Positions 31,375 to 37,469 of a DNA stretch of 38,320 nucleotides are shown here, one piece after another. Origin of the DNA: Gammaproteobacteria bacterium (GTDB lineage Bacteria; Pseudomonadota; Gammaproteobacteria; JAHELT01); assembly GCA_029861595.1 (NCBI GenBank), contig JAOTYY010000006.1:1-38320 (forward strand), given 5' to 3'. Made by a program: the position numbers and the translations under genes. The notes below the pieces were generated by a model, which made no database searches, was not told the DNA's origin, and worked only from the letters and a program-made list of their open reading frames with translations. Within the stretch, counting starts at the first letter, position 1, and the number at the start of each line of letters is the position of its first letter.

Positions 31375-31401
31375 TACGTGGGAAACGTTACATATCACGT
31401 A
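31375..31401. promoter_or_regulatory. inverted repeat TACGTG-N15-CACGTA upstream of bufA (possible operator/activator site)
   Basis: Exact hexamer inverted repeat, half-sites 21 bp apart, in an AT-richer stretch 29-55 bp upstream of the bufA ATG. Confidence 0.4.
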
Positions 31402-31429: not shown

Positions 31430-31681
31430 ATGTACGCAGCGAAAAAAGTATCTGGATTTGCCCTGGCAGCGACCGCAGCAGCCTTGCTGTCTGTCGCGCC
31501 AATGAGCGCGTCAGCCGGCGGCGACAAGGGCAAGTGTATGGGCGCTAATTCATGTAAAGGCCACAGCGACTGCGCGACGGCGAACAGCTCCTGCAAAGGC
31601 TTGAACGCATGTAAAGGCCAGGGTTTCGTGGCGCTGACCAAGGAACAGTGTGACGCTAAGGGCGGCACCTTCGAGGGCTGA
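31430..31681 (+). CDS. bufA: BufA2-like bufferin precursor (periplasmic Cys-rich RiPP metallophore)
   Basis: Sec signal peptide MYAAKKVSGFALAATAAALLSVAPMSASA; mature GGDKGKCMGANSCKGHSDCATANSSCKGLNACKGQGFVALTKEQCDAKGGTFEG with six Cys; followed by DUF692 and DUF2063 genes. Confidence 0.9.
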   Translation: MYAAKKVSGFALAATAAALLSVAPMSASAGGDKGKCMGANSCKGHSDCATANSSCKGLNACKGQGFVALTKEQCDAKGGTFEG

Positions 31682-31700
31682 GTTCCCGCTTCGACGGCGA

Positions 31701-31736
31701 ACGACCGGCATCGCCTGCGGTGACCGGTCGTTTTTT
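31701..31736 (+). terminator. Rho-independent terminator/attenuator between bufA and bufB
   Basis: ACGACCGG / CCGGTCGT perfect 8-bp stem with an additional inner TCGCC/GGTGA stem, followed directly by TTTTTT. Confidence 0.8.
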
Positions 31737-31793
31737 ACCCCTGCGCAGCACTATAGCGGGCACGGACAGGCCCTGTCGGAGCAAAAGCGACAC

Positions 31794-32630
31794 GTGAACG
31801 AGCATTATCTTGGCTTCGGCCTGGGCCTGCGTCGGGATCACTACCAGGCTGTGCTGGACCAGCGCCCGGCGGTCGACTGGTTCGAGATACTCAGCGAAAA
31901 CTACATGGTTGCGGGTGGCAAACCGCTGTATTTCCTGGACCGCATCCGTGCCGACTACCCGATGGTGATGCACGGTGTCTCACTGTCCATTGGCAGCACC
32001 GAGGCCCTGGACGTCGGCTATCTTCGCGATCTGCGTGGACTGGCCGCACGGGTGCAGCCGCGCTGGATCTCCGATCACCTGTGTTTCACTGGCGTTCAGC
32101 AACAGAATCTGCACGATCTGCTGCCACTGCCCTACACCGAAGAGGCGATCGCGCATGTCGCCGATCGGGTTACGCAGGTGCAGGATTTCCTCGGCCGGCA
32201 GATTCTTCTCGAGAACGTATCCAGTTACATAACCTACCGCCACTCGACGATCTCGGAGTGGGAATTTCTGACTGCGGTGGCCGAGCGCGCCGACTGCCTG
32301 ATCCTGTTGGACATCAACAACGTCTATGTCAGCAGCCGCAATCACGCGTTTGACCCCACGCGGTATCTGCACGGGGTGCCGGCACCGCGCGTTCGTCAGT
32401 TCCATCTGGCGGGTCACACCTATCAGGACCACATTGCGGTGGATACGCACGATCAGCCGGTGCTGGACGATGTGTGGAAGTTGTACGCCGAAGCAGTTCA
32501 GCGATTCGGTGCGATCTCGACTATGATTGAGCGAGACGACAATATTCCCGAACTGCCGGAATTGCTGAGCGAGCTCGAAATCGCTCGCGGCATTGCCAAG
32601 CCGCTGCTGGTGGGGGACGCGCATGAGTGA
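31794..32630 (+). CDS. bufB: DUF692 multinuclear non-heme iron oxidative enzyme (MNIO), BufB-like
   Basis: GFGLGLRRDHY, DWFEILSENYM, MHGVSLSIGS, WISDHLCFTG, LLENVSSYITY, LLDINNVYVSSRNH, HLAGHT…DTHDQPV. GTG start with ORF extension upstream. Confidence 0.92.
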   Translation: MNEHYLGFGLGLRRDHYQAVLDQRPAVDWFEILSENYMVAGGKPLYFLDRIRADYPMVMHGVSLSIGSTEALDVGYLRDLRGLAARVQPRWISDHLCFTGVQQQNLHDLLPLPYTEEAIAHVADRVTQVQDFLGRQILLENVSSYITYRHSTISEWEFLTAVAERADCLILLDINNVYVSSRNHAFDPTRYLHGVPAPRVRQFHLAGHTYQDHIAVDTHDQPVLDDVWKLYAEAVQRFGAISTMIERDDNIPELPELLSELEIARGIAKPLLVGDAHE

Positions 32631-33402
32631 TCTGCAGCGGCTGCAACATGCGTTTGCGGCATACATCAGAGAGCGCGACCCGCAGATGCTGGAGCACGTG
32701 GTAAGCACGCCTGCCGCTACCGCTGAACAGCGCCTCGAAATCTACGCCGAGGCGTACCGTTTGCGCCTGCTGGAGGTTCTGGGAACTGATTTTCCGGGAT
32801 TGCACGGCATGCTGGGAGACCAGCAGTTCGAACAGTTGGGCAGGGCTTATATAGATGCGTGTCCCTCGCGGCATGCCTCGATCCGCTGGTACGGGGGGCG
32901 CCTCGCCGACTATCTCCGCGAGCAACCACCATACAACGCACAACCTGCACTGGCGGAGCTTGCCCGCTTCGAATGGACGCAGGGCGAAGTATTCGACGCA
33001 CCGGAAGCGCCGTCCGTGTCCATCGACGCCTTACAGGCGATAGCACCGGAACATTGGGCAGACCTGGGCGTGCGCTTGCATCCCTCCATGCGGGTACTCG
33101 AGCTCTTGTGGAACGTGCCAGTCGTCTGGCAGGCGCTGGACGCGGGGCAAGTGCCGCCGCCACTCAGCGTCGCCGAGGCGCCGATGGTGTGGCTCATGTG
33201 GCGCCTCGAGCAGCAACCGCATTGGCGGTCCCTGCAGGCCGACGAGGCCTGGGCGCTGAATCAGGCTGGTGCCGGCGGCAGCTTTGGCGCCATCTGTGAA
33301 GGATTGCAGGACTGGCTGGAGGTCGCACAGATTCCGCTGCGGGGGGCCGGTTTCATCAAGCAGTGGGTTAGCGACGGGTTGGTCGTCGAGATCCGCGTGT
33401 AA
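32623..33402 (+). CDS. bufC: DUF2063 protein, BufC-like MNIO partner
   Basis: LQHAFAAYIRERDP…RLEIYAEAYRLRLLEVLGTDFPGLHGMLGDQQFEQLGRAYIDACPSRHASIRWYGGRLADYL; overlaps the end of bufB by 8 nt. Confidence 0.92.
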   Translation: MSDLQRLQHAFAAYIRERDPQMLEHVVSTPAATAEQRLEIYAEAYRLRLLEVLGTDFPGLHGMLGDQQFEQLGRAYIDACPSRHASIRWYGGRLADYLREQPPYNAQPALAELARFEWTQGEVFDAPEAPSVSIDALQAIAPEHWADLGVRLHPSMRVLELLWNVPVVWQALDAGQVPPPLSVAEAPMVWLMWRLEQQPHWRSLQADEAWALNQAGAGGSFGAICEGLQDWLEVAQIPLRGAGFIKQWVSDGLVVEIRV

Positions 33403-33470: not shown

Positions 33471-33923
33471 ATGAGTGATGTGATCATACTGTTGGTGGAA
33501 GATAATCCTGACGATGCGGCACTGACGTTGCGCGCGTTGGAAAAGAACGATATCACCAATGCCATGGTTAAGATCGCCGGTAACGGTGTGGAAGCGCTGG
33601 ACTATCTGTTTGGGACCGGCGAATACGCGGGCCGCGACACGGCCGCGCAACCGCAGCTGATACTGCTGGATTTGAAGATGCCGAAGATGGACGGTATCGA
33701 GGTGCTGCGCAGGCTGCGCCAGGACGACCGCACGCGGCTGCTGCCGGTGGTCGTGTTGACTTCATCCGATGAAAAGGAAGACATCGTGAAAATCTATAAT
33801 CTCGGGGCGAACAGTTATATTCGAAAGCCGGTCGATTTCGATGAATTTACAGAAGCAGTTCGGCAGCTGGGCGTGTATTGGCTGCGCTTGAACATGGTGC
33901 CGCCAAGTGAAAACGAGCGCTGA
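33471..33923 (+). CDS. stand-alone response regulator (Rcp1-like receiver)
   Basis: ILLVEDNPDDAALTLRALEK, LILLDLKMPKMDGIEVLRRLRQD, PVVVLTSSDEKEDI, SYIRKPVDFDEF. Confidence 0.95.
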   Translation: MSDVIILLVEDNPDDAALTLRALEKNDITNAMVKIAGNGVEALDYLFGTGEYAGRDTAAQPQLILLDLKMPKMDGIEVLRRLRQDDRTRLLPVVVLTSSDEKEDIVKIYNLGANSYIRKPVDFDEFTEAVRQLGVYWLRLNMVPPSENER

Positions 33924-33993
33924 TTCGCTTCGTTAAGTGCGCTCTTTCGGGGGAACGTGTCCCCGTACGCCGACAGGGAAGGGGAGATTGCTG

Positions 33994-35274
33994 ATGTCGC
34001 CTAGCGCCGCGAAATCCAAATCGTCGCAGGTCGCGACGATCTTAGTCGTGGACGACCTCGATGTGAATCGCCAGATTCGTTGTGCGGTGCTGAAACAGGC
34101 CGGTTACCGGGTGCTGAAAGCGCGTGACGGATGCGAAGCACTGCAGGTAGCTTCCAAGAGCCCACCGGATCTTGCTCTGTCCGACATCCTGATGCCGGGC
34201 ATGGACGGTTTCGAGCTGTGCCGGGCATGGAAAAGCGATGCCAGGTTTCAGGCCGTGCCGTTCGTCTTCTACAGCGCCACTTACACCGAACCGAAAGATC
34301 AGGAATTCGCCCTGCGTCTGGGCGCCGATGCGTTTCTGCGCAAGGGCGCCGACAATCAGGAGTTCCTTGCAGAGATCGCACGTTTACTGGATGCGCCGAT
34401 TCATCACCCTGACAATGAAGTGCGCGATGAGGGCGTGTTTTACCGAGAACACAGCGAACGGGTGGTGCGCAAGCTCGAGGACAAGTTGTCCGAACTGGAA
34501 CGCGCCAATCAGGAAATCAGTGATCGCGAGGAACAATTGCAGGGAGCGAAACGCCAACTGGAGCAGCGCGTAGCGGAGCGCACGGCAGAACTCGTCGCCA
34601 TCAATAAAGAGCTGGAGTCGTTCGCGTATACGGTGTCGCATGATTTGCGTGCGCCGCTGCGGCTGATCAATGCGATAAGTCACGACATGCTGGAGGCATT
34701 CGACGACAGTACGCCACCGTCGCTGGTTGACAACGCCAACGGCATACGGCGTGCGGCCAATCGTATGAACCGCCTGATCGACGAGTTGCTCGAGTTGTCG
34801 CGAGTCACGCGCCGGGTACTGAAACGAGAGCGGGTGGATCTCTCGCACATGGCGCGCGAAGTGGTCGACGAGTTGTTGTTGACGACGCCTGATCGTCACG
34901 TCGATGTCACTATTGAAAGCGGGCTTTTTTTGATAGCCGACAAGGAGCTTTTGCACGTCGTGTTATCGAATCTGTTCGACAATGCGTTGAAATACACGGG
35001 CCGTGAAAAGAAGCCGCGGATAACCCTGGAGCAGCGCACCGAGCAGGGACAGGTTGTCTACGCCGTGCAGGACAATGGCGTTGGTTTCGACCAACGCGAC
35101 GCCAACAAGCTGTTTATGCCGTTTCAGCGTTTACACCGCCAGGATGAGTTCGAGGGTGCCGGCATCGGCCTCGCGACCGTCGCCCGCATCGTCCATCGCC
35201 ATGGTGGAGGTGTCTGGGCAAAAGGTGCGGTCGGCGAGGGTGCGACGTTCTTGTTCTCGATTCCGGAGGTGTAG
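33994..35274 (+). CDS. receiver-histidine kinase hybrid
   Basis: ILVVDDLDVNRQIR…DILMPGMDGFELC receiver; coiled coil; AYTVSHDLRAPLRLINAI phosphoacceptor; HATPase motifs NLFDNALKYTG, VQDNGVGFDQ, GAGIGLATVARIVHRHGG. Confidence 0.95.
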   Translation: MSPSAAKSKSSQVATILVVDDLDVNRQIRCAVLKQAGYRVLKARDGCEALQVASKSPPDLALSDILMPGMDGFELCRAWKSDARFQAVPFVFYSATYTEPKDQEFALRLGADAFLRKGADNQEFLAEIARLLDAPIHHPDNEVRDEGVFYREHSERVVRKLEDKLSELERANQEISDREEQLQGAKRQLEQRVAERTAELVAINKELESFAYTVSHDLRAPLRLINAISHDMLEAFDDSTPPSLVDNANGIRRAANRMNRLIDELLELSRVTRRVLKRERVDLSHMAREVVDELLLTTPDRHVDVTIESGLFLIADKELLHVVLSNLFDNALKYTGREKKPRITLEQRTEQGQVVYAVQDNGVGFDQRDANKLFMPFQRLHRQDEFEGAGIGLATVARIVHRHGGGVWAKGAVGEGATFLFSIPEV

Positions 35275-35374
35275 CATCCGCCTGCAACCGAGCAACCGGT
35301 TAAATATTCCGCCAGGCTCGCCGTAACACTCTTTCGATCGCAGAATAATCTCACTTTGCAAGAATTCGACCTTA

Positions 35375-35821
35375 ATGTCCGTACCTTCTCTGGTAGTCGT
35401 CGAACCGGACGAGACCGAAGCCGCTTTACTGCGCACGGCGCTGTCGAGCAGGTTTCCCCGGGTAACGGCGATTCAAGCCGTTTCCGGCGATGCGGCGTTG
35501 CAGCATCTGACCGACCAGTCGCCTGCACGCAAAATGCATCCGTTGCTGCTGTTGTTCGATGTGCAGTCATTCGACGATTCGGTTCACGACGTGCTCAGCG
35601 CGGTGCGTCGGGTTACACGGCTGGTGCATATGCCCATCGTGGTATTTGTCCGCGAGAATGCAGGCGATGAACTGGACCGGGCACATGCGTTGCGCGTAAA
35701 CAGTGTGATCGCGAGACCGGACAGCAGCGAGGCATTCGTGGATGCAGCCGTGCGCGTGGCGGACTACCGGTTGAACTTGAACCAAACGCCGGGATCAGGT
35801 GTAGATGGTCACGCCACTTAA
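35375..35821 (+). CDS. degenerate receiver-like protein
   Basis: SLVVVEPDETEAALLRTAL … LLLLFDVQSFDDSVHDVLSAVRR … MPIVVFVREN … VNSVIARPDSSEAFVDAAVRV; receiver-like fold pattern lacking the conserved Thr/Ser and Lys. Confidence 0.7.
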   Translation: MSVPSLVVVEPDETEAALLRTALSSRFPRVTAIQAVSGDAALQHLTDQSPARKMHPLLLLFDVQSFDDSVHDVLSAVRRVTRLVHMPIVVFVRENAGDELDRAHALRVNSVIARPDSSEAFVDAAVRVADYRLNLNQTPGSGVDGHAT

Positions 35822-37469
35822 CGTGCTGATAGCGGAGGATTCCGTGGACGACACCCTGGTGCTGATCCGGGAATTGCAGCACGGGGGGTTCGAGCCGAAC
35901 TACCAACGTGTGGAGACGGCCGAAGCGATGCGCGCCGCGCTGCAGGAACGCGACTGGGATCTGGTGATAGCCGACCACAAGATGCCTAGATTCAGTTCCA
36001 CGGAAGCGCTGCAGGAGGTAAAAAGTTCTGCTCTCGACCTGCCCGTGATCATCGTTTCCGGAAATATCGGCGAGCAGTTCGCGGTGGACGCCATGCGTGC
36101 GGGCGCGCACGACTACATAATGAAAGACAGTCTCAAGCGTCTGGCCCCGGCGATCGAACGCGAACTGCGGGAGGCCGAGACCCGGGCCGCCCACCGGCGA
36201 GCCGAAGATACGATACGCCATATGGCGTATCACGATGCGCTGACGGATCTGGTAAACCGCCACGAGTTCGAAACACGGCTGGATAAAGCACTGGCCAGCG
36301 CGCTTGCCCGCGATACCAGTCACGCCCTTCTGTACCTGGATCTGGATCAGTTCAAGATCATCAACGACACTAGCGGTCATGTGGCCGGTGACGAACTGCT
36401 CAAACAACTGGCGGTGGTGCTGGCCGGTCTGGTGCGCGACAACGATACCCTGGCCCGACTGGGGGGCGATGAGTTCGGTATTCTGTTGGAATCGTGTCCG
36501 CTGGACCGAGCGCGCGAGATTGCCGAGAGCATACGTCACGCCGTGGAGAAATTCCGTTTCGCCTGGCAGGGACGGATGTTCAGCATCAGCGTCAGTATCG
36601 GTGTCGCGGCTATCAGCAGAAGTGCGCGCAGCACTAAAGATGTGATGAGCGCGGCGGATATGACCTGCTATGCGGCGAAGGATCTGGGCCGAAACCGCGT
36701 GGAGGTTTTCGTACAGAACGACTCCGAGCTGACACGGCGACAGGGCGAGATGGAATGGGTCTCTCGTATCAACCAGGCGCTGGTGGAAGATCGCCTGGTC
36801 GTGTATCAGCAACGCATTGTACCGTTGCACGGCGCTGGCGCGTTTGGCCGCGAGATGCTGTTGAGGATGTACGATGAAGACGAAACGCTGGTACTGCCCG
36901 GTGCCTTCATTCCTGCCGCGGAGCGTTACAATCTCATGCCCGCCATCGACCGGCGGGTTATTGATCTGGTGCTGGCGAACATCCAGCACGATCAATCCGG
37001 CGATGTCTGTTTCATCAATCTGTCGGGTGCCTCGTTGAGTGATCATTCGTTTTTCACCTACATTCGCGACACGCTGGAAAAATACGCGGTACCACCGCCA
37101 CGCATCTGCTTCGAGATAACCGAGACTGCCGCGATATCACACCTCCCTGCGGCAATCGAATTCATCCGTGGCATCAAAGAGGAAGGTTGCAGATTTGCGC
37201 TGGACGATTTCGGCAGCGGCTTGAGCTCGTTTTCGTACCTGAAGTCCATTCCCGTCGATTTTCTGAAGATCGACGGTGCGTTTGTGCGCAACATACTCCT
37301 GGACCGCGTCGATTGTGCGATTGTCGATGCCATCACGCGCATCGCACAAGAGGCGGAAATCGAAACCATCGCTGAATCGGTCGAGGACGATGCGGTGAAG
37401 CAGCGTTTGCGCGCGCTCGGTGTGTGTTATGCGCAGGGTTATTGCATCGAGTATCCGCACGCCTTATAG
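35805..37469 (+). CDS. REC-GGDEF-EAL cyclic-di-GMP signalling protein
   Basis: VLIAEDSVDDTLVLIRELQ receiver, LARLGGDEFGILLES, REMLLRM (EAL position), FINLSG, FEITETAA, LDDFGSGLSSF, LKIDGAFV, IAESVED, AQGYCIEYPH. Confidence 0.95.
   Translation: MVTPLNVLIAEDSVDDTLVLIRELQHGGFEPNYQRVETAEAMRAALQERDWDLVIADHKMPRFSSTEALQEVKSSALDLPVIIVSGNIGEQFAVDAMRAGAHDYIMKDSLKRLAPAIERELREAETRAAHRRAEDTIRHMAYHDALTDLVNRHEFETRLDKALASALARDTSHALLYLDLDQFKIINDTSGHVAGDELLKQLAVVLAGLVRDNDTLARLGGDEFGILLESCPLDRAREIAESIRHAVEKFRFAWQGRMFSISVSIGVAAISRSARSTKDVMSAADMTCYAAKDLGRNRVEVFVQNDSELTRRQGEMEWVSRINQALVEDRLVVYQQRIVPLHGAGAFGREMLLRMYDEDETLVLPGAFIPAAERYNLMPAIDRRVIDLVLANIQHDQSGDVCFINLSGASLSDHSFFTYIRDTLEKYAVPPPRICFEITETAAISHLPAAIEFIRGIKEEGCRFALDDFGSGLSSFSYLKSIPVDFLKIDGAFVRNILLDRVDCAIVDAITRIAQEAEIETIAESVEDDAVKQRLRALGVCYAQGYCIEYPHAL

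Follow-up and report, generated by a model that had tools for sequence, protein, structure and literature searches.

Many RiPP precursors have to outnumber the enzymes that modify them, and the way in which this ratio is set within an operon is known for few systems. In the puf operon of photosynthetic bacteria, a stable intercistronic hairpin shields the upstream, highly needed segment of the mRNA. A terminator lies between mccA and mccB of the microcin C operon of E. coli, where the monocistronic precursor mRNA is in large excess over the enzyme mRNA (PMC6495379), and another between epeX and epeE of the epipeptide EPE system of Bacillus subtilis, where mRNA levels drop after the precursor (PMC12871923). 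In clostridial ABC-importer operons, stem-loops with reduced U-tracts continued to act as partial terminators, termination was lost once the tail of a stem-loop was removed, and the stability of the stem had an effect on upstream mRNA levels too, so that termination and transcript stability were both shown to count (PMC9045158). In homologous (DUF2282-type) operons of Legionella and Cupriavidus, RT-PCR detected transcripts spanning the precursor-maturase junction, and a terminator is mentioned in neither study (PMC5413113, PMC10304878). A literature search returned no description of a hairpin or terminator for bufferin operons, which is no proof of absence. Because bufferins bind copper stoichiometrically, the precursor:enzyme ratio matters directly in this family.

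The window analyzed here is a stretch of 38,320 nucleotides that forms part of a 4.3-Mb draft genome (G000) of a Gammaproteobacteria bacterium. It carries a three-gene operon that is a Buf2-type bufferin cluster in the order bufABC (BufA2, MNIO BufB, DUF2063 BufC), with the following features:

31377 to 31387, + strand: CGTGGGAAACG block upstream of bufA, conserved amid otherwise diverged sequence in the alignment with the upstream region of the congeneric genome G001
31430 to 31681, + strand: bufA, Buf2-type bufferin precursor of 83 aa with signal peptide and Cys-rich core (NCBIfam NF050166 Cu_RiPP_BufA2, 85.3 bits, cut-off 60); stop codon at 31679-31681
31699 to 31733, + strand: stem-loop of 35 nt, arms 31699-31713 and 31718-31733, loop 31714-31717, bulged A at 31723 (RNA fold −23.0 kcal/mol, z −4.6)
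31731 to 31736, + strand: T6 tract after the stem, corresponding in sequence to the U-tract of an intrinsic terminator (T8 in G001; T logo across the family)
31737 to 31793, + strand: remainder of the gap, 57 nt, 50% identical to G001, with a Shine-Dalgarno-like GGAG for bufB at 31778-31781
31794 to 32630, + strand: bufB, MNIO bufferin maturase with a GTG start at 31794 (NCBIfam NF050167, 388 bits; Pfam PF05114)
32623 to 33402, + strand: bufC, DUF2063 partner protein, overlapping the bufB stop (Pfam PF09836, 82.5 bits)

The BufC score was under the NCBIfam HvfC cut-off and over the Pfam DUF2063 cut-off. As judged from the alignment, the CGTGGGAAACG block is a possible promoter or regulator site. 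Directly past bufC (33471-37469) lie response-regulator, histidine-kinase-like and GGDEF/EAL-like genes; the domain check covered the first of these, which matched Response_reg.

An earlier note on this DNA had placed a strong hairpin with a T-run at 31701-31736. Sequence and coordinates were as claimed (hairpin 31701-31731, T6 31731-31736), and its distances to the neighboring genes were right, measuring 19 nt from the bufA stop to the hairpin start and 57 nt from the T-run to the bufB GTG. RNA folding returned a single hairpin of −20.3 kcal/mol for 31701-31736 (z −4.55) and −23.0 kcal/mol for 31698-31740 (z −4.62), a stability matched by 0/200 shuffles; the hairpin is strong (−20 to −23 kcal/mol, z about −4.6). 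The pairing differed trivially from the one proposed, with a CCTG loop and one bulged A at 31723 in place of a CA bulge and a TGC loop. The element thus has a stable GC-rich stem-loop and a U-tract immediately after the stem, as intrinsic terminators do; it is asymmetric, the T-tract being on the + strand only, and lies between bufA2 and bufB on the same strand, as in mccA-mccB. A generic terminator scan of the window did not call it, presumably owing to the bulge, and pattern-based scans may undercount internal terminators of this bulged sort. Shuffles of the whole window contained 0–7 hairpins each at −18 kcal/mol or below with at least 5 T of 8, both strands counted. Loosely T-tailed hairpins are therefore common at this composition and a comparison with relatives was needed; the weight of the evidence rests on position, the clean T6 and conservation, not on the strength of a lone hairpin.

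The sole congeneric genome available, G001, encodes a BufB that is 82% identical to that of the window and carries the hairpin at the same place, with 30/31 bases identical, a single change in the loop, and T8 thereafter. Elsewhere the two loci were far less alike: the flanks of the gap were identical at 10/19 and 29/58 positions, and the third codon positions of bufA at 44/83. Judged from the two sequences, this comparison indicates strong selection on the hairpin itself. A dispersed repeat was ruled out, since a search allowing up to 3 mismatches found one copy of the hairpin per genome.

Junctions between bufA2 and bufB were then gathered from a GTDB contig scan, family searches and retrieved stretches. 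The loci were selected by similarity to the window BufB or by family models and are a non-random sample, many of them from metagenome-assembled genomes; gene starts were set mechanically, 8–60 shuffles were made per locus, and energies are single-strand predictions. A T-tailed hairpin (−10 kcal/mol or better with a T-rich tail) was present in 58/124 non-redundant gaps, compared to 4.1 ± 1.9 expected from dinucleotide shuffles of the same gaps, an approximately 14-fold difference. In the 118 gaps that measure 40 nt or more, the most stable hairpin had a median of −23 kcal/mol vs. −12.4 kcal/mol in shuffles, was below −15 kcal/mol in 93%, and lay at a median of +13 to +52 past the bufA stop. A hairpin has thus been maintained in evolution at the precursor/maturase junction, and the retention in relatives that the earlier note had proposed as a check was found both in the congener and across the family. 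Controls gave 1/121 at the bufB/bufC junction, 4/97 after bufC, 15 in 103 kb of bufB coding sequence and 17/124 on the antisense strand of the same gaps, the last count being inflated by A-tracts on the 5′ side, which look like T-tracts when read from that strand. With the hairpins trimmed to their GC core, the logo of 75 loci with full flanks had T at 55–68% in +1 to +5 and A at 36–51% in −4 to −1, which in sequence terms resembles the usual, unidirectional terminator pattern of A-tract, stem and T-tract. The family hairpins have a common position and no obvious shared sequence. Covariation, the other check proposed, was found to a small extent: small homologous groups contained only a few compensatory pairs, so the argument is carried by conservation and positional recurrence.

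The T-tract was less conserved than the hairpin. About half of the family hairpins miss a good one, and at least 5 T of 10 were found in 18% of gaps above 62% GC and in 65% of those below 45% GC. The nearest homologs, from Thiogranum (L033, L034, L036, L038), have a strong hairpin at the same place without a T-tract, an evolutionary contrast useful for telling termination from stabilization, and a T-tract is also uncommon among junctions sampled across the wider phylum. Where two precursor genes precede one maturase gene (bufA2-bufA2-bufB), the strong hairpin generally followed just the last precursor (L133, L051, L075, L090, L100 and L079); the exceptions were L166, with hairpins after both, and L052, L175 and L022, with no strong hairpin. 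This placement fits a separator of precursor and enzyme rather than a generic gene-end signal. Tandem bufA2 genes ahead of one bufB also occur in L176. A BufB 65% identical to that of the window was found in a record labeled Rickettsia endosymbiont of Ixodes persulcatus (L107), which may reflect a transfer or misbinning.

Buf1 (DUF2282) operons were at first taken as a negative control: T-tailed hairpins were present in 0/23 of their gaps, and in 2/56 loci of a larger set. Buf1 operons nevertheless carry equally strong hairpins, displaced into the start of bufB and lacking a T-tract. Against synonymous-codon shuffles, the coding hairpin of Buf1-type loci reached z ≤ −2 in 25/56 and z ≤ −3 in 14/56; the same region of bufB in 136 Buf2-type genes had no coding hairpin (median z +0.7). 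Among 21 distinct sequences with the motif (I/V/L/M)P-x-x-(A/S)-G-(I/V)-G, one register was 90% paired and the others at most 53%. Pairs between first and second codon positions were discounted as evidence because the protein dictates them; three third-position/third-position pairs co-change (GC/TA/AT, CG/TA/GC and GC/CG). Several Buf1 loci without the coding hairpin have an intergenic one instead, two of them T-tailed. The source genome of the window holds both forms, namely the Buf2 gap hairpin and, in a Buf1 operon on contig C99 (L002), a coding hairpin of −35 kcal/mol in the 5′ codons of bufB, +26 to +69 past the bufA1 stop. Further Buf1-type bufB genes with a strong hairpin in the first ~10–20 codons (P-I-P-A-x-A-G-I-G-L-R) are L189, L192, L202, L203, L204, L205, L018 and L064; the last, from the cultured Sulfuriferula multivorans, has a hairpin in its Buf2 gap as well. 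Since the coding hairpin cannot be a T-tailed terminator, it probably influences either the stability of the mRNA or the translation of bufB. We give about even chances to the broader proposal that bufferin operons have a dedicated, independently maintained boundary hairpin that sets precursor excess, intergenic and often a terminator in Buf2 operons, and located in many Buf1 operons within the first ~10–20 codons of bufB (P-I-P-A-x-A-G-I-G), under selection at synonymous sites.

The element in the window is probably an intrinsic (Rho-independent) terminator with partial read-through inside bufABC, which keeps precursor mRNA in excess. Polymerase arriving from upstream of bufA would mostly halt at the T-tract, yielding a short bufA mRNA of roughly 0.3 kb with the stable hairpin capping its 3′ end. 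A minority of polymerases would pass the hairpin and produce the bufABC mRNA, from which alone the MNIO enzyme and its partner would be made. As a result, the precursor, which sequesters metal stoichiometrically, would outnumber the catalytic maturases, and this excess is the benefit we infer. The last possible bufB start lies <45 nt past the hairpin in 71% of gaps, too short a distance for a promoter and a leader, so that bufB would usually be reached by read-through. The stoichiometric terminator suggested in the earlier note is consequently the best-supported reading, based on the logo, placement, conservation and promoter room, with the qualification that hairpins without T-tract and the Buf1 coding hairpins exist.

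These qualifying cases suggest mRNA stabilization as a shared or additional role, and the hairpin could even be mainly a protector of the 3′ end: the transcript would be cut downstream or ended otherwise, exonucleases would trim it back, and the bufA segment would outlive bufBC, so that segmental mRNA stability would set the stoichiometry and termination would be secondary. Hairpin stability is indeed shared by more relatives than the T-tract is (93% below −15 kcal/mol, median −23 kcal/mol, often T-less), and the Buf1 hairpin sits in the 5′ codons of bufB with synonymous covariation and no T-tract. However, the T-tracts of the window (T6) and its congener (T8) are clean, and T-tailed hairpins are ~14 times more common in gaps than in shuffles, which makes protection as the main function unlikely. 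The most economical view is that of a single boundary hairpin that contributes in two ways, through 3′-end protection everywhere and through termination wherever a T-tract is present, in lineage-dependent proportions. Transcript stabilization may be the older or shared role, and in the window termination should dominate, given the clean T6.

A regulated attenuator, mentioned as an option in the earlier note, would have a ligand, sRNA or protein toggle between terminator and antiterminator, placing bufBC under the control of copper. The conservation of the hairpin core (30/31) goes beyond the need of a generic terminator, and the comparable terminator of epeX-epeE in Bacillus subtilis has flanking sites to which an sRNA binds (PMC12871923), but the option fared poorly: there was no Rfam match, in both the window and G001 neither arm paired with the 300 nt upstream any better than shuffled sequence did, and the family hairpins have their position in common and no obvious sequence. 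The Rfam search and the arm-pairing test thus gave neither a known aptamer nor an exclusive antiterminator, the marks of riboswitches and classical attenuators, and we regard this option as highly unlikely; given how nearly identical the hairpin is in the two congeners, some scope remains for an sRNA or a protein that acts on it. It is very improbable that there are two transcription units, with a full terminator after bufA and a bufBC promoter in the remainder of the gap, since the 57 nt of the window, just enough for a promoter, have no sigma-70-like site on the + strand (31737-31793), most relatives leave <45 nt, and the junction RT-PCR was positive in Legionella (PMC5413113) and Cupriavidus (PMC10304878). 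A functionless chance inverted repeat has a negligible probability: hairpins with a loose T tail do arise a few times per shuffled window, but congener conservation and family recurrence contradict this origin. Sequestration of the bufB Shine-Dalgarno sequence by the segment after the bufA stop was seen in the window fold and rejected, as it was not above shuffles across 75 loci.

The hairpin occurs, in two implementations, in well over 100 bufferin operons, which provides a rule for precursor:enzyme dosage that can be put to the test. The precursor:enzyme ratio may shift if bufABC is cloned intact or if bufB is recoded. Additionally, the hairpin is an RNA signal for finding short precursor genes upstream of MNIO genes.

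Compared to the described systems, the bufferin arrangement resembles microcin C in having a probable intrinsic terminator between the gene for the peptide precursor and that for the first maturation enzyme; in microcin C, however, it is ribosomes on a gene of 7 codons that induce termination, whereas bufA has 83 codons, and the peptides and enzymes are unrelated. As in epeX-epeE, the probable terminator separates a RiPP precursor from its modifying enzyme, but in that system an iron-responsive sRNA acts at the terminator-flanking sites. The clostridial ABC-importer operons (PMC9045158) share a first gene needed in excess, with the stem-loop after the substrate-binding-protein gene, long GC-rich stems and reduced U-tracts; they differ in genes and phylum, and many bufferin hairpins are nearly without a U-tract. 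Unlike the puf hairpin, the one in the window has a proper T6, which is unnecessary for a pure stabilizer. Terminators between precursor and enzyme genes were already known (microcin C, PMC6495379; EPE, PMC12871923), and what appears to be new is the family-wide bufferin hairpin together with its coding-embedded form.
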